In this document: positions 10,101-49,400 of the stretch, in pieces
How the letters are laid out: every line of letters starts with the position of its first letter
Numbering within the stretch: position 1 is the stretch's first letter
NCBI GenBank assembly: GCA_905160935.1
Contig: CAJHZI010000495.1
Coordinates: 329,001 to 393,000 of the forward strand
Length of the DNA stretch: 64,000 nucleotides
DNA from: Enchytraeus crypticus
Lineage: Eukaryota; Annelida; Clitellata; Enchytraeida; Enchytraeidae
Direction: 5' to 3'
Notes under the pieces: model-generated
Told to the model about the DNA's origin: nothing
What the model saw: only the letters and a program-made list of their open reading frames with translations
Database searches by the model: none
Program-made: the position numbers and the translations under genes

Positions 10101-12254
10101 AGACTAGAAATGTGTGCCTTTGAACTGCTAACTAGCTGAACATTTGAGGAAGAGAGACTCCTTAATTGTCATACGTCTTGCATGTTTGCCACACCTTATC
10201 CCTTAGCAAGTTGATCCTGCTTTGTGAGAACGAAAACAGACTCTGAGCAAGCATGCGAGCCTTGGATAGAAATTTTTAACAATTCTAAAAGCTAATGATG
10301 TTTACGTCAGCATCCTCACTCGAAAGCAAAATCAGTGACGGGCGAGCTCAGGATTTGAACTAGCACATACTGATCTGCAGTCGAGTATATTACCAACATC
10401 GTCACTGACTCCAGCCTAAGAGAGAGAGTGAGAGAGTAATTCAAAGCTACATAACTTATTTCCAGAGAAGAGTTAGTAGAGCAACAGAGCGAGAGCGAGA
10501 GAGATAGAGAGAGCGAGAGATAGAGCAATAGAGAGAGAGAGAGAGAGACAGAGAGATAAAGAGAGAGATAGACAGAGAGCTCATTAGATAAGTCCTTACC
10601 TCAGTGTTGGCGTAGTATGTGCTCCAGGAAGCTCTCAGAGACTCCTGACCTCCGATGTCCCACATGATGAAGTGAAAGTTCTTGTAGACCACTTCCTCCA
10701 CGTTGCTGCCTATAGTAGGTGACGTGTGCACCACTTCGTTCATTAGGCTGTACACAACGCAACAGCGTATTTACAATATACAACATAATATAAAACAATC
10801 AAATTAATTGTGATATGAAATTAAAAATTAAAATGAAATTGGAAATGAACAAAATTATATGGAATGAAATGATATCAAAGTGAGTGACTCGTATATATAG
10901 TAATTTTCTTAGACTAATGACACACAATTTAAAAGTAATTTTAAAAATTTTATTTATACTGTTACAAGATAAACAGCTAACAGATTACTGCTATCATAAT
11001 TATTAATAAATATTGGCATTCGATGATACAGGCCAATGATAGAGTATTTATTATAATTTTAAATCAATTTTTATTTCATCCAGTGGCAGCAAATTAAGAC
11101 AACAGTAACAAACTAACATACATTAAAATACACAAGAAATATTAAGGAATAAAAAACTGATCGAAAATAAAAGGCAAATATGATAGAATAAGATACTTCT
11201 AATTGATTGAGAATGGTAAGTGTTACCATTCTCAATGTAAGCGTAGGACTTACAATTGATAGAGATTGGTAACACTTATAATTGATAGAGATTGGTAACA
11301 CTTACAATTGATAGAGAATGGTTGTTTTTCCTGCATTGTCTAGACCAACTATGATCACCTTGTGATCTGCAGAGAACAATTGTAAATGTAAATTATGTAA
11401 CTCACTTTCATTTGTAAACCTTCGTTTCCAGTGAGATGTATATGTTAATATTTTTACACACTTGTTAAAGTTTTTAAAGTTGATAAAGCTGGTAAAGCTA
11501 ATTTTAACCTAAGTTTCCTCACTCGTAAGCGATATCAGTGAGTGGCGAGCCCAGGATTTGAGCCGCACATACTGATCAGCAAATAAAAAATAAAACAACT
11601 TTTATAACAGCCCATCCATACATGATCATGTAGTTACCTAAATGATCTTACATATGTGTATACGTATGTGTACATACAGTTTAATATAAAAGATACTTTT
11701 AAGCATGTGGATGTGTTCTTTGTGCACTTTGTAAATATCTTTATATATATATCTCTCGGTTTATATTTAAAATTTCCTTTACAATTTTTGTACGATGGAC
11801 TATAAAATTACGACTAGACTTTTGTGAAGTCTTCAACCAACTTCTTGAACCAGTGTAATTAAGTAAATTTAATTAAATATTTAATGCTTATAAGCAAGAC
11901 AGTTTAGCTCCAAAATCGTTAAGATATACATGCAAATTAAACAATAACACAATTTGAGTGCTATGAACATCCACGACAACATTGTTCACTATTATACCAA
12001 TCCAAGCCGATGACCAGCAAAAGAAAGAGTCCATTAAATAATATGAAACCAAAAATATAGAAAGCTAGTCCAAGGAACAGACGGCAATGAACAAAACATC
12101 TCATAGTACTTAGCATTGACATACTGTCTCTTTAATTCAATACGGTACATAATATATGTCTCTTAATATTTTAATAAATCTTAAATTTGTTTATAATAGT
12201 TTACCAACCTTCTGGTGTAAATAAACTTATAAATCTGGAGAACAATAGACCCAT
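7110..12254 (-). CDS. ARL5: ARL5-type ADP-ribosylation-factor-like GTPase, complete gene of six coding exons
   Basis: Coding exons in gene order are 12254-12209, 11366-11306, 10747-10600, 9759-9676, 7810-7659 and 7155-7110. They join in phase to 178 codons plus stop, against 179 residues for vertebrate ARL5. Visible motifs are Gly2 for N-myristoylation (start MGLLFSRF), P-loop GLDNAGKTT at 23-31, switch I SPTIG with Thr47, switch II WDIGGQ at 65-70 with Gln70, guanine-specificity NKQD at 125-128, and CALTGEG near the C-terminus. WDIGGQ, rather than the ARF WDVGGQ, and [13 protein letters not shown] point to ARL5 rather than ARF or ARL1. ARL5 proteins are known as trans-Golgi GTPases that recruit the GARP tether. 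The gene lies head-to-head with the ankyrin gene. All introns have GT/AG ends. Confidence 0.95.
7300..7478 (+). repeat. tRNA-derived SINE, family B
   Basis: It contains aatgacagatcctga, gattcccggccgcgctgatc and acatgtggtactaagagtg. The same body with a cleaner B box (GGTTCGAATCC) occurs at 19183 and 32150. It lies inside the last ARL5 intron. Confidence 0.7.
7659..7810 (-). CDS. ARL5: ARL5 coding exon 5 (NKQD motif)
   Basis: The acceptor is GATGTAG and the donor GTGTGT. The exon contains [23 protein letters not shown] and [12 protein letters not shown], and ends with two bases of the second Gly of GEG. A short TGAT-repeat tract lies just beyond the donor. Confidence 0.94.
8640..9190 (-). mobile_element. 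LINE 3'-coding fragment in an ARL5 intron
   Basis: Reverse reading gives [20 protein letters not shown], then [20 protein letters not shown] and [20 protein letters not shown], typical of the C-terminal part of non-LTR reverse transcriptases. Frames are broken further on. It is a relic in sense orientation with ARL5. Confidence 0.82.
9219..9385 (+). repeat. Dispersed repeat 'aacgtccgtttcctcatcc' family
   Basis: It shares tttcctcatccaaggatg, gtcagggacgtc, gatcaattcacccagacc, atgtgctgagaag and aatggtcagggta with copies at 15760, 49103 and 49657. It is non-coding and about 170 bases. Confidence 0.75.
9676..9759 (-). CDS. ARL5: ARL5 coding exon 4
   Basis: The acceptor is TTTGCAG and the donor GTTTGT, with phase 0 at both ends. 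It encodes [20 protein letters not shown] and then LHKMLACE, the central helix and strand region that matches ARL5 closely. Confidence 0.94.
9805..9895. repeat. Tandem duplication, ~48 bp
   Basis: The segment catgccactatttaacatag and what follows (tatcg.atttcatcag.tgattt) occurs twice, just upstream of ARL5 exon 4 in gene direction. Confidence 0.8.
10288..10417 (-). repeat. tRNA-derived SINE, family A
   Basis: The reverse complement has a B-box-like gttcaaatcctgagc and the tail gaggatgctgacgtaaac. Family A copies are the most numerous SINE in the window. Confidence 0.7.
10425..10580. repeat. GA microsatellite
   Basis: Imperfect GA/GAGC repeat in ARL5 intron 3, close to the exon 3 donor. Confidence 0.85.
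10600..10747 (-). CDS. ARL5: ARL5 coding exon 3 (switch I and switch II)
   Basis: The exon runs from the TACAG acceptor to a GTAAGG donor and completes Phe36. It carries the SPTIGSN and [13 protein letters not shown] segments and ends with YYANTE. A GA-rich microsatellite follows in the intron. Confidence 0.95.
11185..11305 (-). repeat. Donor-echo array of ARL5 exon 2
   Basis: In gene direction, ctctatcaatt|gtaagtgttacc at the exon end recurs as ctctatcaattataagtg and ctctatcaattgtaagtc, with a further inverted piece. Units are about 32 bases. Confidence 0.85.
11306..11366 (-). CDS. ARL5: ARL5 coding exon 2 (P-loop)
   Basis: The acceptor CTGCAG precedes the exon, which encodes [20 protein letters not shown] plus two bases of Phe36. 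The donor is GTAAGT. The last bases of the exon and the donor are repeated downstream within 11185-11305 (see findings). Confidence 0.95.
11486..11582 (-). repeat. tRNA-derived SINE, family A
   Basis: It contains agtttcctcactcg and gagcccaggatttgagccg, the reverse of the B-box region. It lies in ARL5 intron 1. Confidence 0.68.
12209..12254 (-). CDS. ARL5: ARL5 coding exon 1 (start codon, N-terminal amphipathic segment)
   Basis: ATG is read from 12254 downward and encodes [15 protein letters not shown]. The exon ends with one leftover base before a GTTGGT donor. Gly2 is the expected myristoylation site. The leftover G joins AT of exon 2 to give Asp16. Confidence 0.88.
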
Positions 12255-13069
12255 CGCAGCTTGACTGTTGGCTGATTAACACCTAAACGTCTCAAATAGC
12301 TTCGATATTACTTTCCTAAAAGATTGTCGTGTGAATATTTTCAAATATCCTCACAAATTAGCCTTGAAGTTTTATCATTAACCAGAAATCCCATTAAAAT
12401 CAAGATCAAAAAATGAAACAATAGCTATTAATATCTTAAACAATATTGTCTTAAATTCAAATTTGAAATACACCCCCTGACTAGTATTATATGATAATAC
12501 TTAAGATAATTTTACAAAGAAGTCACTAAGTAAAGATGGCCTCATTAAATTAATTAATTAAATTATATATTTTTACGTTTTGTTTAACCCAGTTTTCCTC
12601 CACGTATTTAAATAACTTCCATTTTTCTTCAATTCTTCGCATAAATAAACAAAAATACAAGGAGCAAATCTTCTAAAACCGCTTTTTGATTTGACTGAGA
12701 CAAAGACAAACGTCAATTTGGTTTATGCCAGAACTAGTAAAATGTTATACAATAAAATCTATAATATTAAAGATGGATCATTGTGAAATGCCTATTCATT
12801 ATGTTTTAACCATTTAATTACATATAGTTTAGCGGATAAAATTCTCTATGTCTTTACAGGTCTTCAAAACTTGACTTCAATATCTATCAGCTCGATTTAC
12901 TCTTGGCAACGATCCAAAGGAAATTCGCTGTCAGTTATAAAAAGTAAGGCTGAATTATTCAAAAGTCAAATTCTCAAATATTGTACGTAATGCATGAGAT
13001 GCACATGGTTTTGTGATGGCGTTGCAGTTTGAGAAAAGAACAGTTTCAGTAGAGTGATATCCTAGCTTA

Positions 13070-13380
13070 TAGTTATAGCCAGTCCGGTAAATGTCCGAAA
13101 TGTTACTCTTAGATCAGCGCGACCGGGAATTCTAATGGACAAGAGTTCAATTCACCTCAGGACCTGTCGCTTAAAACTTCAAAGCGTTATCTGACAAATC
13201 TTACTAACACGTACCGGGACATTTAATAATTATATAAATATTCTGATCTGAGAGTAAAATCTCAGATATTCACTGGACTGGTTGTACGGAAAATGAACAA
13301 AATTGCCTAACGGATTTAGCACATAGTATTAAAAGGTGATAGATATCAACATAGCTGATCATTTCACTATAATGCGCGTT
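13070..13380. repeat. Inverted pair of family B SINEs
   Basis: Bases 13070-13185 are a minus copy (tagatcagcgcgaccggga) and 13240-13380 a plus copy (gatctgagagtaaaatctcag ... gatagatatcaacatag). Together they could form a hairpin. Confidence 0.65.
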
Positions 13381-13479
13381 TACTTTACATTTTGTTCGTT
13401 AACAATATCAATTCTGTTGCAGTTTTCCTGTTTATTAGTTTCATTTCAAATGTTGATAGCTACAACAATACGATGAAAG

Positions 13480-15623: not shown

Positions 15624-15748
15624 AAAAAGCTAAGGTTAACGTCAGTTTCCTCACTGGAAAGAGATGTCGGTGACGGGCGAGCCCAGGATTTGAACCCCGC
15701 ACATACTGATCCGCAGTTGAATATCCAACCGATATTGCCAGTGATGAT
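15624..15748 (-). repeat. tRNA-derived SINE, family A
   Basis: Reverse reading shows gggttcaaatcctgggctc, a good B box, and the tail gaggaaactgacgttaacc. A TAA-repeat tail follows. Confidence 0.78.
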
Positions 15749-16239: not shown

Positions 16240-19200
16240 GTGATTTGAAATCTGCTTATAGACTTTTTCAACATGTATTGTAATCTGGGTTGTAAATAAA
16301 CTGAAACACCAGAGCTCTGGGATTTCTGTAACAATGGTAACTTAGCCGCCATATACCAAAGCCACCCAAGTCCTTCCCACAAGTGTTTATTTTCAATAAC
16401 CTTCGTGCTCATGCTTTTATCTTTGCTCTGCGCCCTGTAATATATGAATAAGTAATAAAGGTCTAACGTCCATATCCTTGTATAAGGATGATGTCAGGGA
16501 TGTCCGTAATAATAAGACATAAAAGTAAAATGTAATAAAATAGATGTGAATTCACCTAACTAGACTCTCAATCTTCTCTGTTGTCTCCTAATTTGCTGGT
16601 TCAAGATTCCATTTCTAATCTTTGTCTTCTTTAACAACTGGTAATAGTCCTTTGACCATCACCGAGACCTGTCTTGAAGAAACCAGCAAGATACTACTAG
16701 GCTGCCTATGGCTAGTGAAAATATCGCTTCTGCATAAGTTTAGTTCCAAATCTTTCTGTTCTCAGTTTCTGCGTAGATGTTTTAAATTATATTTACATTT
16801 CGCGCTTGGTCTAAATATTCTGTAGTTAAAAACTCAGACAAAATATAGCTGTCCAATACTAGTTTAGCTATGATTAGTAAATAATTTTTATTTAATTAAT
16901 TAATAATAATTAATAAACGATTCAAGGGAAGATGATAATCAAAATATAGCCGTCCAATACTAGTTTAGCTATGATTAGTAAATAATTTTTATTTAATTAA
17001 TTAATAATAATTAATAAACGATTCAAGGGAAGATGATGATCGCAATGAATAATTCTTATGTTATTGAACTTATTAAATTAGAATTGTTTAGTATAAAGTC
17101 TATTAATACAGAATTTACTGTGTGTGACAGGACAAGGAGAAGAGAAGTCCGCTACACGCGGCAGCTTTCTGTGGTGAGGCCGAGATTGCGGAGCTGTTGT
17201 TGCTGAACGGAGCTCGAGCTAATTCTAAGGATTGTCGTTGGTTGACTCCACTCCATAGAGCGTGTTGTTCAAAAAGCGATGTGAGTCGTAAAATAGCTAA
17301 ATTGTGTAATTGTAAAATAGCTAAATTGCGTAATTGTAAAGTAGCCAAATTGCGTAATTGTAAAGTAGCCAAATTGCGTAATTGTAAAGTAGCTAAATTG
17401 CGTAATTGTAAAGTAGCTAAATTGCGTAATTGTAAAGTAGCTAAATTGTGTAATTGTAAAGTAGCATAATTGTGTAATTGTAAAAAGAAATTGAGTATTG
17501 ATTTTTTTCTCTTGTAAGAATAGTTAGTTCAAACTATAAAGAAAAAATTGATTCTCTGTACTTTACTTTTGTGCCTTTAGCTAAATATCTGCAAATTTGT
17601 GAAGATTAGAAAATTTTACATTAAAATTATTTGTTTGACTTAACCATTTAATTTCTGGATCATCCATTAAATGTTTTTATTATATTTGTTTGTATAATAC
17701 TCGTAAAAATTAATGCAGTGTATTTGGAATTACAGAATTCTGGCATCTTTGCCATGTCCAGATGTATTTACTGAAGCTTTTACAATGTTGGTTCCCTTGA
17801 TTATTCCAGAATTAGTTCTTAGGTTTGTCCTTGTTCTTGCATATTCCAGAATGTCGCTGAAATGTCACTTTCTCCTAGTAATTTTTGCTAACATTGCCTC
17901 AGAAATATACTTTTTCATTTATTAATTTTAACGTTGATCCATTTTTTATTAATAATATTATAAAGTGGTGACATTTTATTTAAAATAATTACATTTTTTC
18001 TGACCCTAGTTAATCTGGGGAAGATGAAGATATGAAAGGGAGGATGATGATAATGAAATAAGATCACTGAAATTTAGCCTAAGCATATTAACATTAAATC
18101 TGACATATTTATATCGTAGGAGACTGTTGACATATTTATATCGTAGGAGACTGTTGACATATTTGTATCGTATGAGACCGTTGACATATTTGTATCGTAT
18201 GAGACCATTGACATTTTTGTATCATATGAGACCGTTGACATTTTTGTATCGTATGATACCATTGACATACTTGTATCATTTGTATCGTATGAGACCGTTG
18301 ACATATTTGTATCGTAGGAAACCGTTGAGGTGTTATTGAGCTACCAGGCCGACGTGAACGCCAGGGATAAGAACTGGCAGACTCCGCTGCACGTGGCAGC
18401 GGCTAATAACTCTGTGAAATGTGCCGAGCTCATCATTCCTCAGCTGACGAATGTCAACGTGTCTGACAGGTGTGGGAGGACTAGTCTTCATCACGCTGCG
18501 TTCAACGGTAATATCGAGGTATGAGCGGTAGTTCCTTAGTTCCAGGAAATTTCCGTTTGTGCGTCTTTAAAGCTTGTTTCTGCTACTATCTCGTTGAATG
18601 TTGTCATTTATGATACTGATTTGATTAGTTAATTTGAAGAACTACCTGTTTGGAGGTATCAGCATCGCTGACATTGTTTTCATTTGAGTAAATAAAAATT
18701 ACACGACATTGTTTGGGTATTAGATTTGACGAACGATGTTATGCCTTGAACTTTCAACCATCCCTGGATATATCCATCATATATATATTAGTTTCTCGTA
18801 TTCCATAGCTTCGCGTATATTTAAATCGTTAGGTCATTAATAGACAATTGTGCCTGTAAAAGTCCAATAATTTTACTCTCTGAACAGCAAAATTCTCTCT
18901 GACTGAGAATGATCGCAAGACATCATGAACAACCATTAAGGTATTACTTCAAGCTCTACGCATTGAGCTACTTGGATGTTACCAGGTTTCAAGATTGAAC
19001 GGCCTACTGGATAGCTTGCATGGTTGCCTGATAAGTAGGTGGACATCGGTTCAAACCCCAATCGTCTCGCCGCAGATCTTGTGATATTAAACAAACGTTA
19101 AACATCACTTCTTTACGTCTAAACGAGCATTGTGTGTTAAATGTTCATTTAGAATGTCTTAATAGCGTTGGGTTAACGTCGTCAAGTTTTAAATGACAGA

Positions 19201-20206
19201 TCCTGAGGTGAATTTAACCCTCGTGGGTTCGAATCCCAGCCGCGCTGATCTGAGAGTAAAGTCTTGGACATTCACTGGATTGGCTATACGGAGAATGGTC
19301 TAAATTGCCTAACGGTTTTAACATGTGGTATTAAAAGTGATAGATATAAACATAGTTGATTATTTCACTATTATGCTTGTTTTTTTAATTTATAATTACA
19401 AGATGGTGAAGCTGCTCTTGGAGAAGGGAGCGACGATCAACGCGTTTGACAAGAAGGATCGACGAGCAATCCACTGGGCGGCGTACATGGGACACGTCGA
19501 CGTGCTGCGACTGCTCATCAGCTTTGGTGCAGAGCTGAGGTGTGCTGATGCTCAGGTATGTCGAGTTCTTATCAATAAATAAACCTGTGCTCGAGTTCTT
19601 GTCAATAAATAAACCTGTGCTTGAGTTCTTGTCAATAAATAAACTTGTGCTTGAGTTCTTATCAATAAATAAACATGTGCTCGAGTTCTTATCAATAGAT
19701 AAATCTGTGCTTGAGTTCTTATCAATAGATAAACCTGTGCTTGAATTCTTGTCAATAAATAAACCTGTGCTTGAGTTCTTGTCAATAAATAAACCTGTGC
19801 TTGAGTTCTTATCAATAAATAAACCTGTGCTTGAGTTCTTGTCAATAAATAAACCTGTGCTTGAGTTCTTATCAATAAATAAACCTGTGCTTGAGTTCTT
19901 GTCAATAAATAAACCTGTGCTTGAGTTCTTATCAATAAATAAACCTGTGCTGGAGTTCTTATCAATAAATAGCAGTGAATGTTAGCTGTTCAGCTGTGAT
20001 TTAAATCAATGGCCTTATATCAGAAAGGTGTGCTAGCCTAGCTGCTATCTTCCGATTGGTCAATACATCTTCGGTGCCATTTCAAGTCGTAAAAGAAAGC
20101 GAAGATTTATTGGTTAGACTCTTTTTCATTAAATTGCCACGCTGCCACAAATTCTAGATATCTGCATATAATATATATATATATATATATATGGTGTCAA
20201 ATATAA

Positions 20207-20582: not shown

Positions 20583-23500
20583 TATATATATATATATATA
20601 TATACACACACATACAAATACACAAATAAATATGTCTCATATACACATATATATATGTGTATATATGACCGGAGCCTATGGCGATGTCGGTAAGGTACTC
20701 AACCGCGGATCAGTATGTGAGGGGTTGAAATCCTGGGCTTGCCGGTCACTGACATCGTTTTCGAGTGAGGAAACTGACGTTAACACTAGCTTTGCCAGCT
20801 TTTATACCTGGCATAATCTTTCGTCTTCTCTGACTCGCTGGTCAGTGACCACTTTTGTTAATGATCTATTGGATCAGCATGTGAAAATGCTCCTACTTTT
20901 GACTGTTTGGCTTAAGCTAGTGTGCTAATTGACAAACTTTTTCAATTGATATTCAAGTACTTTCGTCATTGTTTGGAATTTTAACGAAAGTGACGTAAGT
21001 CTATTGAATAATTCAATAGACACAAGTCTATTGAATTACTTATTATTTTGGGCTACATAGTACTATACTTGAAATACTAATAGTATTTGAAGTATTTGAT
21101 ACTTTTAGCAACATAGTACTCTGAAGTACTTAATACTATATTTGGACTATATAGTACTATGAAGTATTTAAAACTGAGTTAAATATTTCTTTGACATATC
21201 TTCTAAAAATTTAATCGATGCAGTTTGAAATCAATTATCACTGTGCATTGCATTTGCTTACTTTGCTATTTACCTAGACCTCATGTATTGCATGTGGTAG
21301 TATATGTATAGGTGTCTGTATGAGCTTGTGCTAGTATATATATAGGTGTCTGTTTGTGCTTGTGCATGCTTATAGACACCCCTGCACTGTGCTGCAGCCT
21401 CTACGCATGGTGCTATGTGCTTAGATCTTTTGGTCAAAGAGAAACCTGACGTTAACGCCAAGGTTAGATTTGTTATCCTATTTGTTATAGTAATCTATAA
21501 TCATTATTATTAATTTGTTATCATATTTGATATAGTAATCTAAAGTAATCTATTTGTTATAGTAATCTATAGTTAGATTTGTTTTATGGTTAGATTTGTT
21601 ATCCTTTATGTTGTATAGCTAGACTTGCTATTCTGTTTGTGGTATGGTTAGATTTTTAATCCTATTTGTTGTATGGTCAAATAGCTTATGATGAATAGTT
21701 TTGATAAATATAAAGCTTTATTGCAAGAAGGTAGATGCAAAGACTACTTCTTGATTGATTACTTTAGAGATTAATTGATTGATTGATTGATCAGGCTAAC
21801 GATGGAAAGACACCACTTCATGTTAGCGCCATTCACGGGAGGTTTACGAGAGCTCAGACTCTAATTCAGCACGGTATGTATTCACTGTGCTTTCAGTTGC
21901 TGTATTCAGTACAGTATGTATTCATTGTGCCTCTAGTCAATGTATTCAGCACGGTATGTATTCATTTTGCTTTCAGTCACTGTATTCAGTACGGTATGTA
22001 TTCACTGTGCTCCACTCGATGTACTCGGCACGGTATGTATTCATTTTGCTTTCAGTCACTGTATTCAGCACGGTATGTATTCATTGTACTTTCAATCACT
22101 GTATTCTGCGTGGTATGTATTCATTGTACTTTCAGTCACTGTATTCAGCACAGTATGTATTCATTGTGCTTCCATTTAAGGGTTAATAACAGAGGTTTAC
22201 TTGATTAATTGATTGATCGATCGATTGTTTGATGATCAGTTGATCTATTGATAGCTCGTTTGTGTGTGTTTAAGGTACGACAGTGCAGTGCATTGACGCA
22301 CAAGGTAACAGAGGTTTAATAGACTGATTGATTAATTGAATAGTTGATTGATAGATCGATTGCTTGATGATCGGTTGATCTATTGATAGCTCGTTTGTGT
22401 GTATTTAAGGAGCGACAGTGCAGTGTGTGGACGCTCAAGGTAACACACCTCTGCACATAGCCGCTCGGTACGGACATGAGCTTCTCATCAACACGCTGCT
22501 ACAGCACGGTGCTGATGCCACCAAGTATGTGTTAACCTTGATAGAACAATTTAGTTAAAGATTCTTGGAGTTATAGTATGTAAGATTACGTAGTCTAGTC
22601 CACTGCATGCCTATTTGAAATTTAAATGATGATATTAACTCTAATAGGGTCCGGTTTGCTGAAGAATCGACCAACTGTTGACTGCACGTGTCATAAAAGA
22701 CCACAAAGCACTCTGATCCAAACCCAACTTCAGAAAGGGCATTTTGTTGGTGAATTCCTAGGCTCAAAATGCTGCAACAAAATTGTCTGTTCGTGACCCT
22801 AGTAAAACTGAGATTCAAGGGAAGATGCCGATGTTGATGCTGACAGTGATCTTAATCTGTTGTCCTAATAGTGCTTACAAAATTATTTAAGCACAAATTC
22901 TGGGTCCCTTTTCAGCTCACTTTTAGAAAGTTGTGTACCTGATTCATTTTGTTTACTAATATGGTTTGTAAAACTTTGAAGGATTTTCAAATTTCTGAAA
23001 TATTAACGATTGGTTCTTGTCATAAACTTAATATCCTCTCAGCACTCTGAACAAATCTGGTATAATTTCACTCTGAACGTTTGATGAAGCTGCTCAAATT
23101 TTCTTAGGTTTGCTTAGTTCATATATTATTTTAAACTAATCTTACTTGACATCTGTTTAATGTAATTTATTTTGTTACTGTAAATATTTTAACCAGATGT
23201 ATTTTTCACAGACATACCAGACATTTTCACAACATTTGTTAAGTGTATTTTTCACCAGATAATCTGTTTAGTTCATCTGTCTGGTATTTAGTTCACCAGA
23301 CCTTTCAACTATAGTATATTTCACAAGTTTATGGTATATTTCATAACCAAATCTTACTACAGTTATTTCCCCAGTAATCTCGCTGACGAGTATAACTCTA
23401 AACGCTCTAGTAAAGAATATCTTCAAGTGAGGAAACGGACGTTAACTTTAGCGTTGCCAGCTTTAAAGGAAATCTAAGAATATAATAATCTCTGCTGATT

Positions 23501-39138: not shown

Positions 39139-39389
39139 ACAATAGAAACAAATATTAACAGGTACAGCAATAGAACTGCAATTAAGAAGATAGCTAACTA
39201 GAATAAATCGAGAATGTGACACTGTGAGAATTCCTGCTTTGTTGAGAACATCTGCTTATTTATAACATTTCAGATTCTACCGGTTGTGACTCTTTCCAGA
39301 CTGGCGGTGCTCGAGATCATCTTGAAGGTCAGGATGATGGTCGTCGTGAATCTGGGTCACTTCAAAGTTCAGATTCTGAATTCTACTGA
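16156..39389 (+). CDS. ANKRD28: Ankyrin-repeat regulatory subunit of protein phosphatase 6 (ANKRD28/44/52 type), 28 coding exons, 5' end not found
   Basis: The exons listed separately join without a frame break to 1,036 codons including stop, so about 1,035 residues; vertebrate relatives have roughly 990-1,080. The protein is almost entirely 33-residue ankyrin repeats (TPLHxAA, GADVN, GRT). Diagnostic stretches are [46 protein letters not shown] and the C-terminal SDSEFY (vertebrate SDSETY/F). These subunits are known to scaffold PP6 catalytic subunit and SAPS proteins. The similarity is to all three vertebrate paralogues, so this is probably their single invertebrate counterpart; the symbol is a label, not a one-to-one claim. 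A short N-terminal exon upstream of 16156 is expected and was not identified. Introns are loaded with minisatellites and SINEs. Confidence 0.95.
16839..17038. repeat. Tandem duplication, ~98-bp unit
   Basis: Two nearly identical units run from aaaatatagc.gtccaatac to cgattcaagggaagatgat, upstream of ankyrin exon 2. They differ by only a few bases, so the duplication is recent. Confidence 0.9.
17131..17280 (+). CDS. ANKRD28: PP6 ankyrin subunit exon 2
   Basis: The exon lies between TGACAG and GTGAGT, phase 0 at both ends. It contains [20 protein letters not shown] and [14 protein letters not shown]. The donor is followed at once by a 24-bp minisatellite, and the frame stays open into that intron (see findings). 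Confidence 0.94.
17287..17470 (+). repeat. 24-bp minisatellite at exon 2 donor
   Basis: About eight units of taaattgcgtaattgtaaag plus tagc start seven bases after the donor. In exon frame they encode LRNCKVAK repeats without a stop until 17467. Confidence 0.92.
18101..18328 (+). repeat. 27-bp acceptor-echo array, exon 3
   Basis: Eight units of ttgacatatttgtatcgta followed by tgagaccg precede and include the acceptor ATCGTAG|GAAACCGTTGA. The first two units keep TCGTAG|GAGACTGTTGA; the later ones have TCGTATG. Confidence 0.92.
18318..18518 (+). CDS. ANKRD28: PP6 ankyrin subunit exon 3
   Basis: The acceptor is ATCGTAG and the donor GTATGA; 67 codons, phase 0. It encodes [40 protein letters not shown] and more. 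The acceptor and first exon bases are the last unit of a 27-bp tandem array. Confidence 0.95.
18975..19095 (+). repeat. tRNA-derived SINE, family C
   Basis: It contains ctggatagcttgcatggttg, an A-box-like start, and cggttcaaaccccaatcg as B box, then ttaaacaaacgttaaacatc. Relatives are at 50310-50440 and 62790-62925. Confidence 0.68.
19183..19372 (+). repeat. tRNA-derived SINE, family B
   Basis: It contains cgtgggttcgaatcccagcc (B box) and ctgatctgagagtaaagtc; its end lies just before the exon 4 acceptor. Confidence 0.82.
19403..19555 (+). CDS. ANKRD28: PP6 ankyrin subunit exon 4
   Basis: The acceptor is TTACAAG and the donor GTATGT; 51 codons, phase 0. It contains [19 protein letters not shown], one of the most conserved stretches in the family. 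A tRNA-like SINE ends about 30 bases before the acceptor, and a 30-bp minisatellite starts at the donor. Confidence 0.95.
19556..19975 (+). repeat. 30-bp minisatellite at exon 4 donor
   Basis: About 14 units of ttgagttcttgtcaataaat followed by aaacctgtgc start directly at the donor. It is open in several frames on both strands, but the exon 4 frame meets a stop in the first unit. Confidence 0.95.
20168..20290. repeat. TA microsatellite before exon 5
   Basis: Long TA run ending eight bases before the exon 5 acceptor, where a pyrimidine tract would normally stand. Confidence 0.92.
20298..20501 (+). CDS. ANKRD28: PP6 ankyrin subunit exon 5
   Basis: The acceptor is TTGAACAG and the donor GTAGCT; 68 codons, phase 0. 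It contains [20 protein letters not shown] and [22 protein letters not shown] microsatellites press on both sides of this exon. Confidence 0.94.
20532..20662. repeat. TA and CA microsatellite after exon 5
   Basis: TA run followed by a short ACAC and TATA region in the intron after exon 5. Confidence 0.9.
20668..20806 (+). repeat. tRNA-derived SINE, family A, good copy
   Basis: A-box-like ggcgatgtcggtaagg, B-box-like ggggttgaaatcctgggct, and tail gaggaaactgacgttaacac can be read in order. Confidence 0.8.
21376..21462 (+). CDS. ANKRD28: PP6 ankyrin subunit exon 6
   Basis: The acceptor is CTTATAG and the donor GTTAGA; 29 codons, phase 0. It encodes [20 protein letters not shown] and ends DVNAK. 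STHGA is the family signature at this repeat. Donor-flanking sequence recurs in the next intron. Confidence 0.94.
21795..21873 (+). CDS. ANKRD28: PP6 ankyrin subunit exon 7
   Basis: The acceptor is GATCAG and the donor GTATGT; it ends with one base of Gly. It encodes [20 protein letters not shown] and QTLIQH. The last ten exon bases and the donor are echoed in a 40-bp array, and the frame stays open into the intron. Confidence 0.94.
21874..22185 (+). repeat. 40-bp donor-echo array, exon 7
   Basis: Units of attcagcacggtatgtattc, then attttgctttcagtcactgt, repeat the last exon bases and the donor about seven more times at 40-base spacing. Confidence 0.93.
22192..22409 (+). repeat. ~135-bp tandem duplication spanning exon 8 acceptor
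   Basis: The block gatgatcagttgatctattg, agctcgtttgtgtg, tttaag and then the first 35 exon bases appears first at 22275-22309 and again at the real exon (22410). Confidence 0.85.
22410..22524 (+). CDS. ANKRD28: PP6 ankyrin subunit exon 8
   Basis: The acceptor is TTTAAG and the donor GTATGT; it begins by completing Gly and ends with two bases of Lys. It contains [20 protein letters not shown]. An upstream partial copy starts at 22275. Confidence 0.93.
22575..22835 (+). repeat. Dispersed repeat with (GAT)n tail
   Basis: It contains gaagaatcgaccaactgttg, aacccaacttcagaaaggg and ccctagtaaaactgag, then gatgccgatg. It is a decayed full-length copy. Confidence 0.6.
22836..23404. other. Intron 8, AT-rich DNA
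   Basis: A family A SINE tail is visible at 23405-23466. A short tract of tattt.cac repeats lies at 23160-23350. Nothing else. Confidence 0.4.
23524..23676 (+). CDS. ANKRD28: PP6 ankyrin subunit exon 9
   Basis: The acceptor is TGTATAG and the donor GTTAGA. It contains [20 protein letters not shown] and [14 protein letters not shown], matching the family's RGIHGMFPLHLAALSG and DDFGRTCLHAAA. It ends with two bases of Gly. Confidence 0.93.
23735..24340. other. Intron 9, AT-rich DNA
   Basis: No recognisable repeat or exon apart from a CT-rich stretch near 23920-23975. Confidence 0.4.
24345..24455 (+). repeat. SINE tail with TTGA repeat
   Basis: The text gacgtccctgac occurs three times, followed by ggcaaggaaccggacgttaa and ttgttgattgattaattg. 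It shows that one dispersed family ends in a (TTGA)n tail, a likely source of the many GATT arrays. Confidence 0.65.
24464..24532 (+). CDS. ANKRD28: PP6 ankyrin subunit exon 10
   Basis: The acceptor is TATTTCAG and the donor GTTCGC. It completes Gly and encodes [16 protein letters not shown] and LIDSEG plus two bases of Arg. It is followed by a long TTGATGG-type tandem array. Confidence 0.9.
24630..25570 (+). repeat. GATT-based minisatellite, ~940 bp
   Basis: Units of gactgattgattgatgggttg and variants fill the intron between exons 10 and 11, stopping close to the exon 11 acceptor. Higher-order blocks (tgacgggttgattgatgg) occur. Confidence 0.95.
25577..25717 (+). CDS. ANKRD28: PP6 ankyrin subunit exon 11
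   Basis: The acceptor is GAGCAG and the donor GTTTGT. It encodes [19 protein letters not shown] and [15 protein letters not shown], and ends with two bases of Lys. The family shows GRSPLHYAAANCNYQC and GCTPLHYAA at this place. Confidence 0.94.
26155..26425 (+). repeat. Dispersed repeat with (GAT)n tail
   Basis: It contains gctgaagaatagacc, aaccaacgtcagaaagggc, cctaatcccgaccctagtt and gggaagatgatgatg. Its tail ends near the exon 12 acceptor. Confidence 0.75.
26466..26577 (+). CDS. ANKRD28: PP6 ankyrin subunit exon 12
   Basis: The acceptor is TACATAG and the donor GTTTGT. It completes Lys and then gives [16 protein letters not shown] and [19 protein letters not shown]; phase 0 at the end. Confidence 0.92.
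26668..26757 (+). repeat. tRNA-derived SINE, family A, 3' part
   Basis: It begins at the B box (ggtttcaaatcctgggct) and runs to ctaaagctggtt. Confidence 0.65.
26885..27150. repeat. Dispersed TTGA/GATT tracts in intron 12
   Basis: Irregular gattgattg and tgattgattga repeats lie upstream of exon 13. Confidence 0.8.
27159..27233 (+). CDS. ANKRD28: PP6 ankyrin subunit exon 13
   Basis: The acceptor is TATCTAG and the donor GTCAGT; 25 codons, phase 0. It encodes [20 protein letters not shown] and then PLHLA. This is the family's less regular linker between repeats, shortened here compared with vertebrates. Confidence 0.87.
27659..27768 (-). repeat. tRNA-derived SINE, family A
   Basis: Reverse copy with acatcagtttcctac and ggattggaaccctgcacc. 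It sits in intron 13; a palindrome (cacataatgtatattatgtg) lies at about 27504. Confidence 0.6.
27890..28135 (+). repeat. Dispersed repeat with (GAT)n tail
   Basis: Shared text is gaagaatagaccaa, aaccaacgtcagaaagggc, cctaggctccagaaattgc and gatgatgatgatg. It ends about 25 bases before exon 14. Confidence 0.7.
28160..28235 (+). CDS. ANKRD28: PP6 ankyrin subunit exon 14
   Basis: The acceptor is CTGCAG and the donor GTCAGC. It encodes [16 protein letters not shown] and VNIDSQDNR plus one base of Gly. Confidence 0.9.
28290..29000. other. Intron 14, unique AT-rich DNA
   Basis: No exon, repeat family or array is recognised here. Confidence 0.4.
29003..29143 (+). repeat. tRNA-derived SINE, family A, good copy
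   Basis: It has ggtaatgtcggtaaggtac, the B box cggggttcaaatcctgggct and tail acgaaactgacgttaac. A fragment of the 'aacgtcc' family follows in reverse at 29208-29264, ending in TTA repeats at exon 15. Confidence 0.8.
29305..29430 (+). CDS. ANKRD28: PP6 ankyrin subunit exon 15
   Basis: The acceptor is TTATAG, directly after a TTA-repeat tract that looks like a SINE tail, and the donor is GTGCGT. It contains [20 protein letters not shown] and ALPLHLA, and ends with one base of Ala. Confidence 0.92.
29541..29632. repeat. Inverted repeat (hairpin) 1
   Basis: The left arm acagctatagcactgata ... ggcacagataaa and right arm tttatctgtgcc ... tatcagtgctatagctgt pair over about 37 bases with a few mismatches. 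Confidence 0.88.
29787..29966. repeat. Inverted repeat (hairpin) 2, ~83-bp arms
   Basis: The left arm ends ttaaagctagagcac at 29869 and the right arm begins gtgctctagctttaa at 29883. The arms match almost perfectly through ggcaccaatatagtcatgg and gatatggcactgatgaag, leaving a 13-base loop. Confidence 0.93.
30015..30096 (+). CDS. ANKRD28: PP6 ankyrin subunit exon 16
   Basis: The acceptor is GATACAG and the donor GTGCTT. It encodes [20 protein letters not shown] and DCMDELE plus two bases of Arg. A large inverted repeat sits just upstream, and a TCAA/TCAG tract starts just after the donor. Confidence 0.9.
30097..30280 (+). repeat. TCAA/TCAG tract after exon 16 donor
   Basis: Irregular caatcaatcagtcagtc repeats begin about 12 bases after the donor. 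Confidence 0.9.
30692..30809 (+). CDS. ANKRD28: PP6 ankyrin subunit exon 17
   Basis: The acceptor is TTTTGCAG and the donor GTGAGT. It encodes [19 protein letters not shown] and RTALHMA, corresponding to QTPLMLSVLNGH and GRTALHRGA in the family. Phase 0 at the end. Confidence 0.94.
30975..31160 (+). repeat. Acceptor echoes 1 and 2 of exon 18
   Basis: Copies of TTGTAG|GCTGCTA.TGGGCAC at 31009 and 31094 are set in GATT-rich sequence. The first extends 33 bases into exon-like sequence with four differences. Confidence 0.92.
31205..31780. other. Unique insertion in intron 17
   Basis: About 570 bases of AT-rich sequence (starts near ggccaacgagagag) separate the second and third acceptor echoes. 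No protein homology is visible; it may be an unidentified non-autonomous element. Confidence 0.4.
31825..31923 (+). repeat. Acceptor echo 3 of exon 18
   Basis: TTGTAG|GCTGCTAATGGGCACG with agaagtgtgtagattt starts at 31842, 82 bases before the real exon. Confidence 0.93.
31924..32064 (+). CDS. ANKRD28: PP6 ankyrin subunit exon 18
   Basis: The acceptor is GATTGTAG and the donor GTATGT; 47 codons, phase 0. It contains [14 protein letters not shown] and [20 protein letters not shown]. Three decoy copies of the acceptor plus exon start lie upstream at 31009, 31094 and 31842. Confidence 0.95.
32065..32150. repeat. CT microsatellite after exon 18
   Basis: TCTC repeats begin just after the donor and run into a SINE. 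Confidence 0.85.
32150..32330 (+). repeat. tRNA-derived SINE, family B, good copy
   Basis: It contains gacagatcccgaggtgaatt, cgtggattcgaatcccagcc (B box), gagagtaaaatctcgg and catgtggtattaaaagtg. Confidence 0.82.
32677..32746 (+). CDS. ANKRD28: PP6 ankyrin subunit exon 19
   Basis: The acceptor is TTTGCAG and the donor GTTTGT. It encodes [20 protein letters not shown] and AYN plus one base of Gly; the family has DNHGYTALHWACYNGH. Confidence 0.93.
32780..33350. other. Intron 19, AT-rich DNA
   Basis: A short TA run is at 32970-33000. A reverse family A SINE fragment follows at 33353-33432. Nothing else. Confidence 0.45.
33538..33625 (+). CDS. ANKRD28: PP6 ankyrin subunit exon 20
   Basis: The acceptor TATGTAG lies in a TATG microsatellite; the donor is GTACGT. 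It completes Gly, then gives [19 protein letters not shown] and NAFSPLHCA plus two bases of Val. Confidence 0.93.
33640..34000. other. Intron 20, unique AT-rich DNA
   Basis: No repeat or exon recognised. Confidence 0.4.
34019..34102 (+). CDS. ANKRD28: PP6 ankyrin subunit exon 21
   Basis: The acceptor is ATTTCAG and the donor GTTTGA. It completes Val and encodes [20 protein letters not shown] and NVTDGKG plus two bases of Arg, aligned with the family's INDNEGAAEML and ASIVNATDSKGR. Confidence 0.92.
34488..34569 (+). pseudogene. Decayed partial copy of ankyrin exon 22 with acceptor
   Basis: After TGTATAG, gaaagtgctacatgcttcat and ttgttcacagatcaatatga match the real exon start at 34607 at roughly 70-75%, including gcttcattgttcacagatca against gctgcgtcgttcacagatca. 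Stops and one indel make it non-coding. Confidence 0.85.
34607..34752 (+). CDS. ANKRD28: PP6 ankyrin subunit exon 22
   Basis: The acceptor is TCTATAG and the donor GTGAGT. It completes Arg and contains [19 protein letters not shown] and [18 protein letters not shown] decayed copy of its first ~80 bases with its own acceptor lies at 34488-34569. Confidence 0.95.
34763..34898 (-). repeat. tRNA-derived SINE, family A
   Basis: Reverse reading shows cgggttcaaatcctgggctc and tgagaaactgacgctaac. It starts 10 bases after the exon 22 donor. Confidence 0.78.
34898..35065 (+). repeat. Minisatellite, left arm of inverted pair
   Basis: Units of tgtgagtgc.agcacttcc face right; the same unit in reverse fills 35440-35610. 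Confidence 0.88.
35195..35397 (-). repeat. 5S-derived SINE, full-size copy
   Basis: It runs from ttggcgcatcaattgcagcc through ctgtcaacactcggtcttcc and aagtactaaccggcg to gctaatcccgcc. Reverse reading gives the 5S-like block as in 712-905. Confidence 0.78.
35402..35612 (-). repeat. Minisatellite, right arm of inverted pair
   Basis: After two units in the left-arm orientation the array flips to aggaagtgcttgcactcac repeats, about nine units. Confidence 0.9.
35765..35875 (+). repeat. 57-bp acceptor echo of exon 23
   Basis: The block aatatatgtatgtgtatatt followed by tag|agttac occurs at 35797-35824 and again at the real boundary (35876); gaatagag.cggcta is shared too. Confidence 0.9.
35876..35955 (+). 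CDS. ANKRD28: PP6 ankyrin subunit exon 23
   Basis: The acceptor is TATTTAG and the donor GTATGT. It completes Glu and encodes [20 protein letters not shown] and HYACLN. Both ends are echoed: the acceptor at 35819 and the donor with exon end at 36081-36106. Confidence 0.91.
35956..36185 (+). repeat. CT array with donor echo of exon 23
   Basis: Bases 36085-36113 repeat ctttacactatgcttgtctc and gat|gtatgtgtc, the exon end and donor. A shorter echo, ctcaatgtatgtgtc, is at 36027-36041. Confidence 0.93.
36511..36644 (+). repeat. 42-bp acceptor-echo array of exon 24
   Basis: Three units of ttgttgtag|caacatgaa with cagtgcatgttgtgtgtgg precede the real acceptor at spacings of 42, 42 and 45 bases. 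Confidence 0.95.
36645..36727 (+). CDS. ANKRD28: PP6 ankyrin subunit exon 24
   Basis: The acceptor is TTGTAG and the donor GTATTG. It encodes [20 protein letters not shown] and VSNSQRK plus two bases of Thr. Three upstream copies of acceptor plus exon start lie at 36516, 36558 and 36600. Confidence 0.92.
36785..36886 (+). repeat. tRNA-derived SINE, family A, divergent
   Basis: It has taagtaggtgcagggttcaa, ccccgtcattgaca and aggaaactgacgttaaa. Confidence 0.65.
36890..37300. other. Intron 24, AT-rich DNA
   Basis: No exon or named repeat is visible before the GATT tracts begin. Confidence 0.4.
37305..37585. repeat. GATT/GATC tracts before exon 25
   Basis: Irregular ttgattgatctatc repeats lead up to the exon 25 acceptor. 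Confidence 0.85.
37599..37690 (+). CDS. ANKRD28: PP6 ankyrin subunit exon 25
   Basis: The acceptor is TATATAG and the donor GTTGTA. It completes Thr and encodes [20 protein letters not shown] and [10 protein letters not shown] plus one base of Gly, aligned with [32 protein letters not shown]-type sequence. Confidence 0.94.
38040..38312. repeat. CTGA tracts before exon 26
   Basis: Repeats of ctgactgactgtctgacta end about 10 bases before the acceptor. Confidence 0.9.
38321..38458 (+). CDS. ANKRD28: PP6 ankyrin subunit exon 26 (end of last repeat)
   Basis: The acceptor is ACTCAG. It encodes [20 protein letters not shown] and [11 protein letters not shown], equivalent to [22 protein letters not shown]. 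The chosen donor is GTTCGT after 38458; a second candidate in the same phase is GTGTCT after 38476. If neither is used the frame ends at TGA 38497-38499, giving a shorter C-terminus. The first donor is preferred because the next two exons then join in phase. Confidence 0.85.
38515..38660 (+). repeat. 16-bp minisatellite in intron 26
   Basis: About eight units of taagattaataagtttt flanked by two copies of aataacctgataagatta. Confidence 0.93.
38703..38747 (+). CDS. ANKRD28: PP6 ankyrin subunit exon 27 (short tail exon)
   Basis: The 45-base exon lies between GAACAG and GTCTTC. It reads [15 protein letters not shown] plus one base, and CVSFQSVA resembles TVSFEALP in the vertebrate tail. Its phase matches both neighbours, which supports it despite the small size. 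A 16-bp TAAGTTTTAAGATTAA array precedes it. Confidence 0.68.
38780..38902 (+). repeat. tRNA-derived SINE, family A, divergent
   Basis: It has gagccggtggcttgttgg, gcagggttgaattccag and tgaaactgacgttaaactt. Confidence 0.65.
39098..39136. repeat. TA microsatellite
   Basis: Short TA run in the last ankyrin intron. Confidence 0.9.
39274..39389 (+). CDS. ANKRD28: PP6 ankyrin subunit terminal exon 28
   Basis: The acceptor is CATTTCAG. It encodes [20 protein letters not shown] and ends [10 protein letters not shown] with a TGA stop. The ending matches the conserved DSDSETY/F of the family. Coding bases from this exon have seeded a 29-bp array in the following 300 bases. Confidence 0.82.
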
Positions 39390-39700
39390 TTTGTTTTCTG
39401 GTTGATTCAGCGCTGGAGCTGTTGCTAGTTCAGATTCTGAATTTTGCAGAGGTAACATTTGAGTTGAGCTGTGAATCATGGGTCAGTGTAGGGTCAGTAT
39501 GTGAATCTGGGTCAGTGTAGGGTAGAGATGTGAATCTGGGTCAGTGTAGAGTCAAGATGTAATCTGGGTCAGTATAGCGTTGAGATGTGAATCTGGGTCA
39601 GTGTAGTGTCAATATGTGAATCTGGGTCAGTGTAGCGTAGAGATGTGAATCTGGGTCAGTGTAGCGTTGAGATGTGAATCTGGGTCAGTGTAGAGTTGAA
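39390..39700 (+). repeat. 29-bp array in the 3' UTR seeded by exon 28
   Basis: Eight or so units of tgtgaatctgggtcagtgta plus gcgttgaga repeat the coding text cgtgaatctgggtca from the terminal exon. A copy of agttcagattctgaatt is also at 39426. Confidence 0.9.
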
Positions 39701-43169: not shown

Positions 43170-43345
43170 CGATCAGCTATGTTGATATCTATCACTTTTT
43201 AATACCACCTGTTGAAACCATTAGACGATTTTAATCATTTTCCGTGTAACCAGTCCTGTGAATGATCGAGATTTTACTCTCGGATCAGCGCGGATAGGAT
43301 TAGAATCCACGAGAGTTAAAAATTCACCAGTCCTTTAAAACATGA
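43170..43345 (-). repeat. tRNA-derived SINE, family B
   Basis: Reverse copy with gatcagctatgttgatatct, gagattttactctcggatc and ggattagaatccacgag. Confidence 0.72.
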
Positions 43346-45204: not shown

Positions 45205-45208
45205 CATA

Positions 45209-45717: not shown

Positions 45718-45729
45718 ATATATATATAT

Positions 45730-45775: not shown

Positions 45776-45934
45776 CCTATATGTCATGCTTAATTAAAAT
45801 ATCATTTCTGAGAAAGTTTTAGAATCTATAAATTAATGGAATGATTTTATATATACCAGAGTACCGCTTCGTCAAAAGTAAAAAAATTGAAAGTCAAATA
45901 TCTTTAGGTTTTGTTACTTACTACATATTGCAGT

Positions 45935-46179
45935 CCTATATTGATAGGACTGAAGTAAGAGGTCAGAGCTAACGATGGACTGGAATATTTATTGTACTTT
46001 ATTGTACTATGTTGATAGGAATGTTGATATAACAGAGTACAGAGCTAATGATGGACTGGTGTATTTATTGTACTATGTTGATAGGACTGCTGTATATAAC
46101 AGAGTACAGAGCTAACAATGGACTGGTTTATTTATTGTACTCTATTGTACTATGTTGATAGGACTGCAGTATATAACAG
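45935..46179 (+). repeat. Acceptor-echo array of zinc-finger exon A
   Basis: Copies of cagagctaacgatggactgg at 45964, 46040 and 46107 precede the real one at 46184, each followed by tatttattgta and gttgatagga. Confidence 0.93.
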
Positions 46180-46295
46180 AGTACAGAGCTAACGATGGAC
46201 TGGTTTACTGGTGTAATCAGTGTGAAATGAGCTGCCCCTCAGTACATCTCATGATCGGACATGCGAGCAGTAAACTGCATCGACTAAAATACATG
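46180..46295 (+). CDS. Zinc-finger exon A (C2H2 U1-like finger)
   Basis: The acceptor is taken as ATAACAG at 46173-46179; NAGs a few bases later are possible. The donor is GTATCT, starting a CT microsatellite. It encodes EYRANDGLVYWCNQCEMSC and the rest of the finger. Three upstream copies contain the first coding bases. Confidence 0.85.
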
Positions 46296-46296
46296 G

Positions 46297-46355
<59 letters not shown>

Positions 46356-46374
46356 CTCTATTTCTCTATCTCTC

Positions 46375-46461
<87 letters not shown>

Positions 46462-49400
46462 CTGTATCTTTCTCTCTTTATGTATCTCTCTCTTTCTGTA
46501 TCTATCCATCTCTCTCGCTATCTCTCTCTCTTTCCCTCTCTCTCTCTCTCTCTGTGAATTTTCTGGTGCATACTCGTAATATACAACTCGATTCTATCTT
46601 CTATCATATTATTCTTTCATGGTAGGTTTAATATGTACATAAATGTTGTTTCCTTCTCAGATTATAACTCGTTGACTGATAAACATGATTGACTGATTGA
46701 TTAATTAATTGATTGATTGATTGAATGATTAATTGATTGATAAATTGATTGATCAGTAAATTGTATAATTGATTGATTGTTTTGCAGAAACGTCACTACC
46801 TTACACAACGTCATAATAATATAATAACAAAGTCATAACTTAGTGGATAACATGACTGATTGATTGCTTAATTAATTGATTGAGTAATTAATCAATCAAT
46901 TGATTAATAAATTAAGTGATTGATTGGCTGCGTGCAGCAATGACGTAGCATTCACTGCATTCTATCTCTCAGTCAGTTTTAGAGACGGACTTATTGCTTA
47001 GTAGATGAAAATGATTGATTGATTGATTAATCAATTGATTGAATGATTGATTAATTGATTTAATTAATTAATTAATTGATTAATAAATTAACTGATTGAT
47101 TGTTTGACTCACAGCAGCGACACTACCTAAGCTACGTGCAGGCAGTACAGTCTAGTCAGAACGAGGCCGCGGTGCTGCTGGAGTACGCTCGTATCATAGA
47201 ACAGGCTGAAGGTCGTCAGGCAATTGTCTCCAACAGTGACCTCGACCTTTCTGCACTTCTCATGTACACGGGCTTGACCCCGGATAAATCAGTTATCCCA
47301 ACGGCTGCCGGTCTCGAAGGTGACTCTTCATTCTCATTTTTTAAATGTTTCCTTGCCGAGTCTCGGAAGCTTATCTAGAAAAATAGATCATCAACATTTT
47401 CCCTTAAATCCCAGTCTAACCAAGGTCGATCTTGGAAATAAATATATCAAGTTTAATGTCCTTTCCTTATTCAAAGATGATGGTAAGGATGTCCAAATAG
47501 CACGTGTCATTCAAGAGGAATTTATCCAAACTGATTTGTGAAAATGCGTGCTGAAGGAGTTTTTGCGCAATTCAGAACTTTGTATTCTTAAAGGGTTGTA
47601 CATTTTGTTTTACAGTTCTACAGATACTTTAGTTTACTTATATTTACAGATACTTTACACAACCCAAATTGCTGGCAATTCCGGAAAGATTTTGTTAATA
47701 ATGCTGAATGCGAAATAATTCATTTGCCGAGAAGGAAATGAAAGCAATATTGGAAGCTGCATTTTCAGTGCAGATTGAACAATAAAGTTGATGGAGGCTT
47801 TCCTTTTATAACTGTATACATTTGTTGGCACTGACATTATCATAAATGAGTGAGGTGAGAGATTGTTAATCGCAATATGTACCATGAACTTCTCCTATTT
47901 ATATTTAGCAATAATATTATTAATCATGCAGCATCCAAAGGTCCTCAGAAGGAAAATGAGATGACATCAGGGTTTTCTGTTCCAGTGACTGACCAACGAA
48001 GTCCTTTTGAAAGTGCTTCGGTTTGCTTCATTTATATGTTTCATTTAACGGTTATTGAGCTTTCTCGCTCCCTCACTGACTATCTCTCGCTGTCTCTCTC
48101 TCCCTCTCTCTCTCTCGCTGTCAGTGAGCTTCCTAATGGCAGACCCATGCCGTGTAGACTATTCCAAACCTTTCTATCCTCAGCATTCATTAAATATATA
48201 TATCTCTATTCTAACAGAACTGATAAATATAACAGATAACCGAACTGATCGTTTTGATAAGTATGTTTTGTTATTTCTATGTTAGCAAAAAACATAACTT
48301 ATCATTTTGATAAGTATGTTTGTTATTTTGACGATAACAGATAACATAACTGATTATTTTGATAAATTTGTTTTTAAATTTTGATGTTAACAGATAACAG
48401 AACTTATCATTTTGATAAGTATATTTTGTTATTTTGATATTAACAGAAACCATAACTTATCATTTTGATAAGTATGTTTTGTTATGTCGATGTTAACATA
48501 TAACAGAATTTATCATTTTGATAAGTATGTTTTGTTATTTTGATGTTAACAGATAACAGAACTGATCATCTTGATAAGTAGGCCTATGTTTTGTTATTTT
48601 GATGTTAACAGATAACATAACTGACCATTGCGATTAGTATGTTTTGTTATTTTGATGTTAACAGATAACAGAACTGATCATCTAGATAAGTAGGCCTATG
48701 TTTTGTTATTTTGATGTTAACAGATAACATAACTGACCATTGTGATTAGTATGTTTTGTTATTTTGATGTTAACAGATTACAGAACTGGTGCACAAGCTG
48801 TCTATGAGAGCCGGCTGCAAGAGCGTCTCAGAATTTCTCAAACCTTACGTAAGCTGCTCCATTTGTCGTCTTTCAAAATAGAGATCTTCTCACATTAGTG
48901 TTCGGGATTTTGATTTTCATCTCTGTGTTTTAATATTCACTTGCTGAATTTAGTTGGAGCACCAAGGCATTGAAGTTACCTTCTTTATATGGGCATATAT
49001 TGGGTATAAATATAAAATAATAAAAATAATATAATATTGGACTGAAATATATGGTTACCATAGGTTCTATAGTATTACGTAGCATAATAATAATTATAAT
49101 AATAATAAAGGTTTAACGTCCGGTTCCTCATCCAAGGATGATGTCAAGGACGAACTCTCAGCACACATTACTGCAGGTCAATTCACCCAGACCAATCTGC
49201 AAAAGAAATTGCTAAGGAGAAGTAAGGTCCTAAACGAAAGCCAGAAAAAAAAAAAAAAATGGTGAGGGTATATCGATTAAAAATCTAGGATTAATGCACA
49301 GTAGACAATTAGTAAACAAATTTGTTATTCTTTACCTCGCAGGGTTTAACCGTTTAGTTTAACCGTTTAGGCTGTCTTGTTCAGCTTTCTTCTTCTTAAT

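Follow-up and report, generated by a model that had tools for sequence, protein, structure and literature searches.

The window analyzed here, a stretch of 64,000 nucleotides (nt) from Enchytraeus crypticus (contig CAJHZI010000495.1, positions 329,001 to 393,000), carries genes whose splice junctions lie partly within tandem arrays. The units of such an array contain a splice site together with the adjoining edge of the exon, and the additional copies are termed echoes herein. Gene models were built by reading splice sites and reading frame in the window. Four genes were modeled, comprising 76 splice boundaries (39 acceptors and 37 donors) and 29 kb of intron. The ANK gene on the + strand consists of 27 exons with an open frame of 1020 amino acids; it is a PP6 regulatory ankyrin gene of the ANKRD28/44/52 type, since at least 90% of the protein is covered by matches named PP6 regulatory ankyrin subunit or ANKRD28/52. 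The gene on the − strand was modeled with four exons and gives a Pfam Arf match; beyond this match we take it to be ARL5 by comparison with human ARL5. Five exons were modeled for the ZNF gene, the first one being zinc-finger-like; the "zinc-finger" label given by the sequence-only reading of this stretch is not backed by a Pfam search, in which the fragment matched no family. The fourth gene has four exons, and its protein gave no match in a protein search.

Tandem copies at the boundaries were determined by a strict test, namely an ungapped local self-comparison with a lag of 8–1500 nt, a score of at least 16, and at least 6 nt on each side of the junction; simple repeats with a period of up to 6 were removed, and copies were sought on both sides of the junction. 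Eleven of the 76 boundaries, eight acceptors and three donors, are spanned by tandem copies. In all 11, the copies are on the intron side only, none being on the opposite side, as the sequence-only reading had described. A gapped search, confined to the intron side and accompanied by shuffled controls (n = 228), gave 10 clear junctions with scores of 60–97, compared with 17 spanning matches and a maximum of 30 in the shuffled sequences. It adds the acceptor of ANK exon 22 and misses the ARL5 donor and ZNF exon 2, and the union of both searches therefore amounts to 12 boundaries, in agreement with the "at least a dozen" originally counted. Nearest lags are 26–327 nt and the exon content is 6–58 nt across both searches. 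The proposed range of 6 to about 80 exon bases is thus right at its lower end, whereas the window maximum is 58 nt, at exon 22, and the strict test reaches 36 nt. As regards the suggested "unusual mode of intron growth," the junction arrays total about 2.5 kb by a hand sum of their spans, beside the 29 kb of modeled intron.

Most arrays belong to the ANK gene; unless stated otherwise, those described below are on the + strand and were found by both searches. The acceptor array of ANK exon 3 (18101–18328, exon start 18318) has a 27-nt unit with 11 nt of exon and seven spanning echoes, two of which keep the AG. The donor array of exon 7 (21864–22171, exon end 21873) is built from a 40-nt unit with 8–10 nt of exon, and GT is kept in all of its seven echoes. 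The acceptor echo of exon 8 (22197–22445, exon start 22410) has a 135-nt unit including 36 nt of exon. At exon 18 (30979–31956, exon start 31924), acceptor echoes occur at lags of 82, 830, and 915 with 23–33 nt of exon, the array being broken by some 600 nt that do not belong to it. The diverged acceptor echo of exon 22 (34467–34664, exon start 34607), with 58 nt of exon in the gapped alignment, was found in the gapped intron-side search only and falls below the strict test. Exon 23 is echoed at both ends: its acceptor echo (35794–35881, exon start 35876) has a lag of 57 and 6 nt of exon, with 31 nt identical, and its donor echoes (35924–36116, exon end 35955) have lags of 77 and 152 with 7 and 32 nt of exon, respectively. 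The acceptor array of exon 24 (36499–36656, exon start 36645) shows lags of 45, 87, and 129 and 12 nt of exon.

In the ARL5 gene, the donor of the exon at 11306–11366 lies in an array on the − strand (11248–11322) with a 26-nt unit, 17 nt of exon, and two further intron-side copies, found by the strict test only. The acceptor of the first modeled ZNF exon (45993–46209, exon start 46187) is echoed with a 77-nt unit and 21 nt of exon; the exon upstream of it has no model, and this acceptor is hence outside the 36 window introns. The acceptor echo of ZNF exon 2 (46733–47128, exon start 47115; lag 327, 14 nt of exon), likewise found by the strict test only, is weak, with 74% identity and a partly TTGA-like sequence. 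The acceptor array of ZNF exon 4 (48230–48788, exon start 48777) has a 53/112-nt unit, 9–12 nt of exon, and eight spanning echoes. None of the six junctions of the fourth gene is echoed in the strict test. Two conspicuous arrays, at 17288–17484 (24 nt × 8) and 19563–19971 (30 nt × 13.6), do not count as junction echoes: they begin just downstream of ANK donors 2 and 4, some bases into the intron, and contain no copy of an exon or a true donor. Their first unit opens with GTAAAG, a donor-like word. Past the stop codon of the ankyrin gene, the 29-nt units of an array at 39345–39700 are similar to part of the last coding exon (GTGAATCTGGGTCA), and echoes may thus form past gene ends as well.

Under the strict test, 23% of intron-internal positions in the window lie in arrays, compared with 14% of junctions, 8.8% of intergenic positions, and 1.4% of exon-interior positions. 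The check proposed earlier, boundaries against intron positions, accordingly fails in its raw form, since the 11/76 boundaries fall below the intron-internal rate. This raw comparison was set aside because an exon can occupy only the outermost copy of an array. The fair control is provided by intron-internal positions whose copies all lie to one side, that is, the outermost-copy rate, which in the window is 4.4% for upstream-only and 5.1% for downstream-only copies. Against this control, the check does single out acceptors (8/39, p = 2.5e-4), whereas donors are not clearly raised (3/37, p = 0.29).

The analysis was extended to other loci of the same genome, where regions around Arf-family matches and other GTPase matches were modeled with a spliced protein aligner. 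The splice matrix of this aligner was derived from the window; tested on exons 1–11 of the ankyrin gene, the aligner placed 19 of 22 exon ends correctly. A first fetch of 20 regions supplied 13 loci for an Arf set (junction filter of at least 3/8 similar residues on each side) and two, L017 and L018, for a second set; L022, L025, and L028 were left out for a low score or lack of an intron, and L023 and L024, the flanks of the window, for lack of a model. From a second fetch of eight regions, L035, with one exon, was left out. The stricter filter of the second set (at least 5) was fixed before counts were seen; it removed 9 of 36 introns, including one whose acceptor is echoed, and left none from L034.

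In the Arf set (13 loci, 46 introns), 12/46 acceptors are spanned against 1.88 expected, and 4/46 donors against 2.98. Pooling the window with 21 further loci, 109 introns in all, yields 21 acceptors compared with 4.13 expected (p = 3e-9) and eight donors compared with 5.83 (p = 0.23); outside the window (73 introns) the values are 14 versus 2.37 and 5 versus 3.81. With paralogues weighted, 14.67 acceptors versus 3.15 expected and 5.50 donors versus 4.27 remain, and changing the thresholds has little effect on either rate in the pooled set. Acceptors are echoed more often than donors (p = 0.016), their frequency ranging from 7% to 26% among the sets, with 21/109 overall. Wrong-sided echoes are found at 0/76 window boundaries, 0/92 boundaries in the 46 Arf-family introns, and 1/54 in the 27 further introns, the lone case being a GATT repeat. 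Exon content reaches 97 nt in echoes of ARF genes.

The distribution of arrays along introns was examined in the window together with the Arf set (82 introns), where array coverage rises from 13% at 400–600 nt from the acceptor to 34% at 60–100 nt. The high peak near acceptors is gone once introns with a spanned acceptor are dropped. As arrays favor the neighborhood of exons in general, the test was repeated with the intron 60–200 nt from the same junction as the baseline, which in the 109 introns leaves 21 acceptors compared with 4.65 expected (p = 2.5e-8).

Neutral expectations were obtained from a simulation with uniform tandem duplication, in which wholly exonic events were discarded, exons were conserved, and the outermost copy was kept working by rule. 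Simulated junction rates are 0.8–1.6 times the one-sided interior rate, donors and acceptors alike; the observed donors are close to this neutral rate and the acceptors far above it. A purely neutral account—uniform duplication, removal of exonic events, and detection aided by one conserved copy—fits the near-absence of arrays in exons and, roughly, the donor rate. It is nevertheless unlikely, as acceptors exceed it about fivefold, also with paralogue weighting, with the nearby baseline, and among echoes of at least 95% identity, where eight acceptors are found compared with 1.47 expected in the pooled set. The persistence of the excess at this identity rules out slower decay of the conserved copy as its sole cause and indicates that births or expansions are biased, rather than survival alone. 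The neutral persistence put forward in the sequence-only reading is hence half right: the one-sidedness, the exon interiors (1.4% versus 23%), and the donor rate follow it, and for donors neutral duplication roughly suffices, while acceptors need an extra bias.

The reading that we favor, to which we would give a probability of about 65%, is that the arrays are splice-junction minisatellites that combine neutral intron-side duplication with an additional bias toward acceptors. The introns of this genome frequently contain tandem duplications, whose length is mostly between some tens of nucleotides and about 150 nt. When a duplication crosses an exon edge, the outermost copy, adjoining the remainder of the exon, would keep the working site, and the spare copies would fall in the intron and drift; wholly exonic duplications would be removed. 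The counts show both the one-sidedness and the rarity in exon interiors, and selection is the probable reason for them. Acceptor-spanning duplications would arise or expand about five times more than intron-internal duplication predicts, for which a mutational bias at the 3' ends of introns, possibly at repetitive GT- or GATT-rich tails, may be the cause.

Several observations weigh against this reading or narrow it. Intron-side placement is built into the simulation, and therefore only rates are tested by it. Arrays are denser near exons in general: without the introns with spanned acceptors, coverage still goes from 6% at 400–600 nt to about 17% within 200 nt. With the nearby baseline, donors are raised too (8 versus 3.72 expected in the 109 introns, p = 0.036), and in the window alone acceptors come to only 7 versus 2.90 (p = 0.028). 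Donors are also raised among echoes of at least 95% identity (5 versus 1.85, p = 0.04), and some of the bias may hence apply to donors as well as acceptors. The second set (nine loci, 27 introns) is weak on its own, with 2/27 acceptors versus 0.49 and 1/27 donors versus 0.83, albeit in the same direction. The loci outside the window are all GTPase-type genes and not a random choice, their paralogues are not independent, and echoes at two of them (C102 and C323) had been noticed before the regions were retrieved. Echoed acceptors contain more G than the others (p = 0.015) and have a slightly higher site score (p = 0.04, with a matrix trained on the window's own sites), while intron length, T, C, TAG versus other sites, and donor score do not differ; their sequence is thus barely distinct, and a mutational cause is not demonstrated. 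Finally, the differences between real edges and echoes show a third-position excess beyond that predicted for a freely drifting echo.

This excess was determined in 19 arrays by comparing the real edge with its nearest echo. Differences amount to 11/268, 5/272, and 37/262 at codon positions 1, 2, and 3, that is, 16/540 for positions 1 and 2 combined, and to 43/966 in the intron part. The excess is about fivefold, compared with at most about twofold from synonymous change in the real exon (p = 0.002 if sites are independent); it carries limited weight because the paralogous arrays are not independent. Among the echoes alone, the varying columns are 21/151, 14/154, and 28/148 at positions 1, 2, and 3. 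For farther echoes the excess appears smaller, with 47/280 compared with 39/590 at positions 1 and 2 (by subtraction). An exchange of roles between copies would explain the bias. As a tentative and rather doubtful extension, the arrays could act as a reservoir rewriting exon starts, in which unequal exchange swaps echo and working edge and only copies without amino-acid change survive. If true, acceptors would be hotspots of continual replacement of exon edges.

The same third-position bias would also fit echoes that are functional, as alternative acceptors or poison exons under selection. Consistent with this, AG is mostly kept (42/51 acceptor echoes in the window and the Arf set), as is GT (14/16 donor echoes), the nearest echo leaves an open frame at 4/7 donor and 3/19 acceptor boundaries, and the account of human boundary tandem repeats in recent duplicates reports alternative splicing and new introns (PMC2812944). 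The retention of AG and GT is, however, approximately that predicted by about 90% identity alone, and with 47 of the 51 acceptor echoes a stop codon would enter the reading frame. Nor are the unit lengths convincingly frame-preserving, 13 of the 26 smallest lags being multiples of three. Since AG decays about as expected and the acceptor echoes mostly bear stops, their use as splice sites or coding extensions is unlikely, and selected function is a quite improbable explanation of the arrays; the earlier suggestion that "the extra sites may be used" is disfavored accordingly. Judged from the reading frames, splicing would pick the exon-proximal copy.

Arrays of this kind are hard to assemble, the amphioxus draft seemingly having misassembled one of them (PMC3087553), and some echoes are identical to the real edge (L015 and L021), as assembly artefacts from reads over repeats might be. 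An artefact is very improbable given that many units are 5–20% different from the real edge, that the arrays recur at unrelated loci on a consistent side, and that the assembly has 802 contigs for 524 Mb. At L021, a SAR1-like gene on the + strand (junction 7183), four acceptor echoes, whose lags are multiples of 69 nt, match the real edge exactly, which suggests a very recent expansion.

The ARF-family loci L009–L020 include several paralogues that share intron positions; their exons are about 80–93% similar, and most of their introns cannot be aligned. For the compared pairs, this lack of alignment rules out haplotigs as the origin of the copies. The presence of echoes varies among ARF-type paralogues. 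In one shared ARF1 intron, the echoes of two paralogues each resemble their own exon and a third paralogue has no acceptor echo, which points to repeated births or local homogenization. At the other ARF1 intron in common, the exons are too similar for birth histories to be told apart; an old array may be common to the ARF6 pair.

The arrays appear to be of the kind called "mirages" in amphioxus, that is, minisatellites spanning exon–intron boundaries. They have been reported in Adh3, globin, and troponin C, and repeats resembling them in PGBD5; their units of about 10–160 bp are located at 5' and 3' boundaries, many but not all units keep AG/GT, and copy number varies between haplotypes (PMC3087553, PMC3902484). 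The likeness lies in units that combine the splice site with a portion of the exon, at donors and acceptors, with many keeping AG/GT. Unlike the amphioxus cases, described gene by gene in cephalochordates, the arrays here affect about one-fifth of acceptors in another lineage, favor acceptors over donors, and are set against a background that was measured. Two proteins used in database searches have no close named relative; among the best 120 matches listed of thousands, they are about equally distant from many phyla, and Branchiostoma is named in no row with a readable organism, in line with a host other than amphioxus. In the open-licence literature, we found neither a genome-wide report nor another lineage with arrays called mirages; the lineage, as far as apparent, as well as the frequency, measured background, and acceptor bias would hence be new. 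For human genes in segmental duplications, internal tandem repeats at exon–intron boundaries with 27 intron modifications are described (PMC2812944). Those repeats vary between recent paralogues and are said to give rise to novel introns or alternative splicing, whereas in this genome existing introns are extended and nothing points to the copies being used.

Intron gain by tandem genomic duplication, as in the Rogers model, a potato gene, and human introns from tandem arrays, has in common with the echo arrays a duplication that touches splice signals. There, a new intron arises within coding sequence, whereas the ARF introns are common to paralogues with and without echoes. No creation of a new intron was found among the ARF-type paralogues compared, intron positions being shared whether echoed or not. 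Nor was a duplicated or mutually exclusive whole exon found, as the spanning copies cover one real splice site plus 6–97 nt of exon edge. In NAGNAG and similar tandem acceptors, more than one AG is located near the exon start; the copies described here differ by lags of 27–915 nt and by including exon sequence. If about one-fifth of acceptors indeed have near-identical upstream decoys, the genome offers a natural experiment on the choice of the spliceosome among equal sites, as well as a test of whether local duplication lengthens introns and changes exon edges. Mirages, otherwise a curiosity of amphioxus, would then become a mutational process that can be quantified and that is biased toward 3' splice sites.

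The window contains further repeats. Dispersed repeats with "cccaggatttgaaccc" and "cgaatcccagccgcgctgatctgagagtaaa", for example at 15640–15700, 32150–32290, and 43200–43330, give the impression of tRNA-derived short elements; a search of the window with ARAGORN found no tRNA genes. Immediately upstream of ANK exon 16 (29540–29994), tandem units of 17 nt that alternate in orientation form large imperfect inverted repeats. In the ANK intron after exon 22, a 19-nt tandem array and its inverted counterpart (34899–35032 and 35397–35609) flank about 440 nt; the structure resembles a foldback-type element with tandem-repeat inverted ends, its 94-nt arms being 87% complementary.

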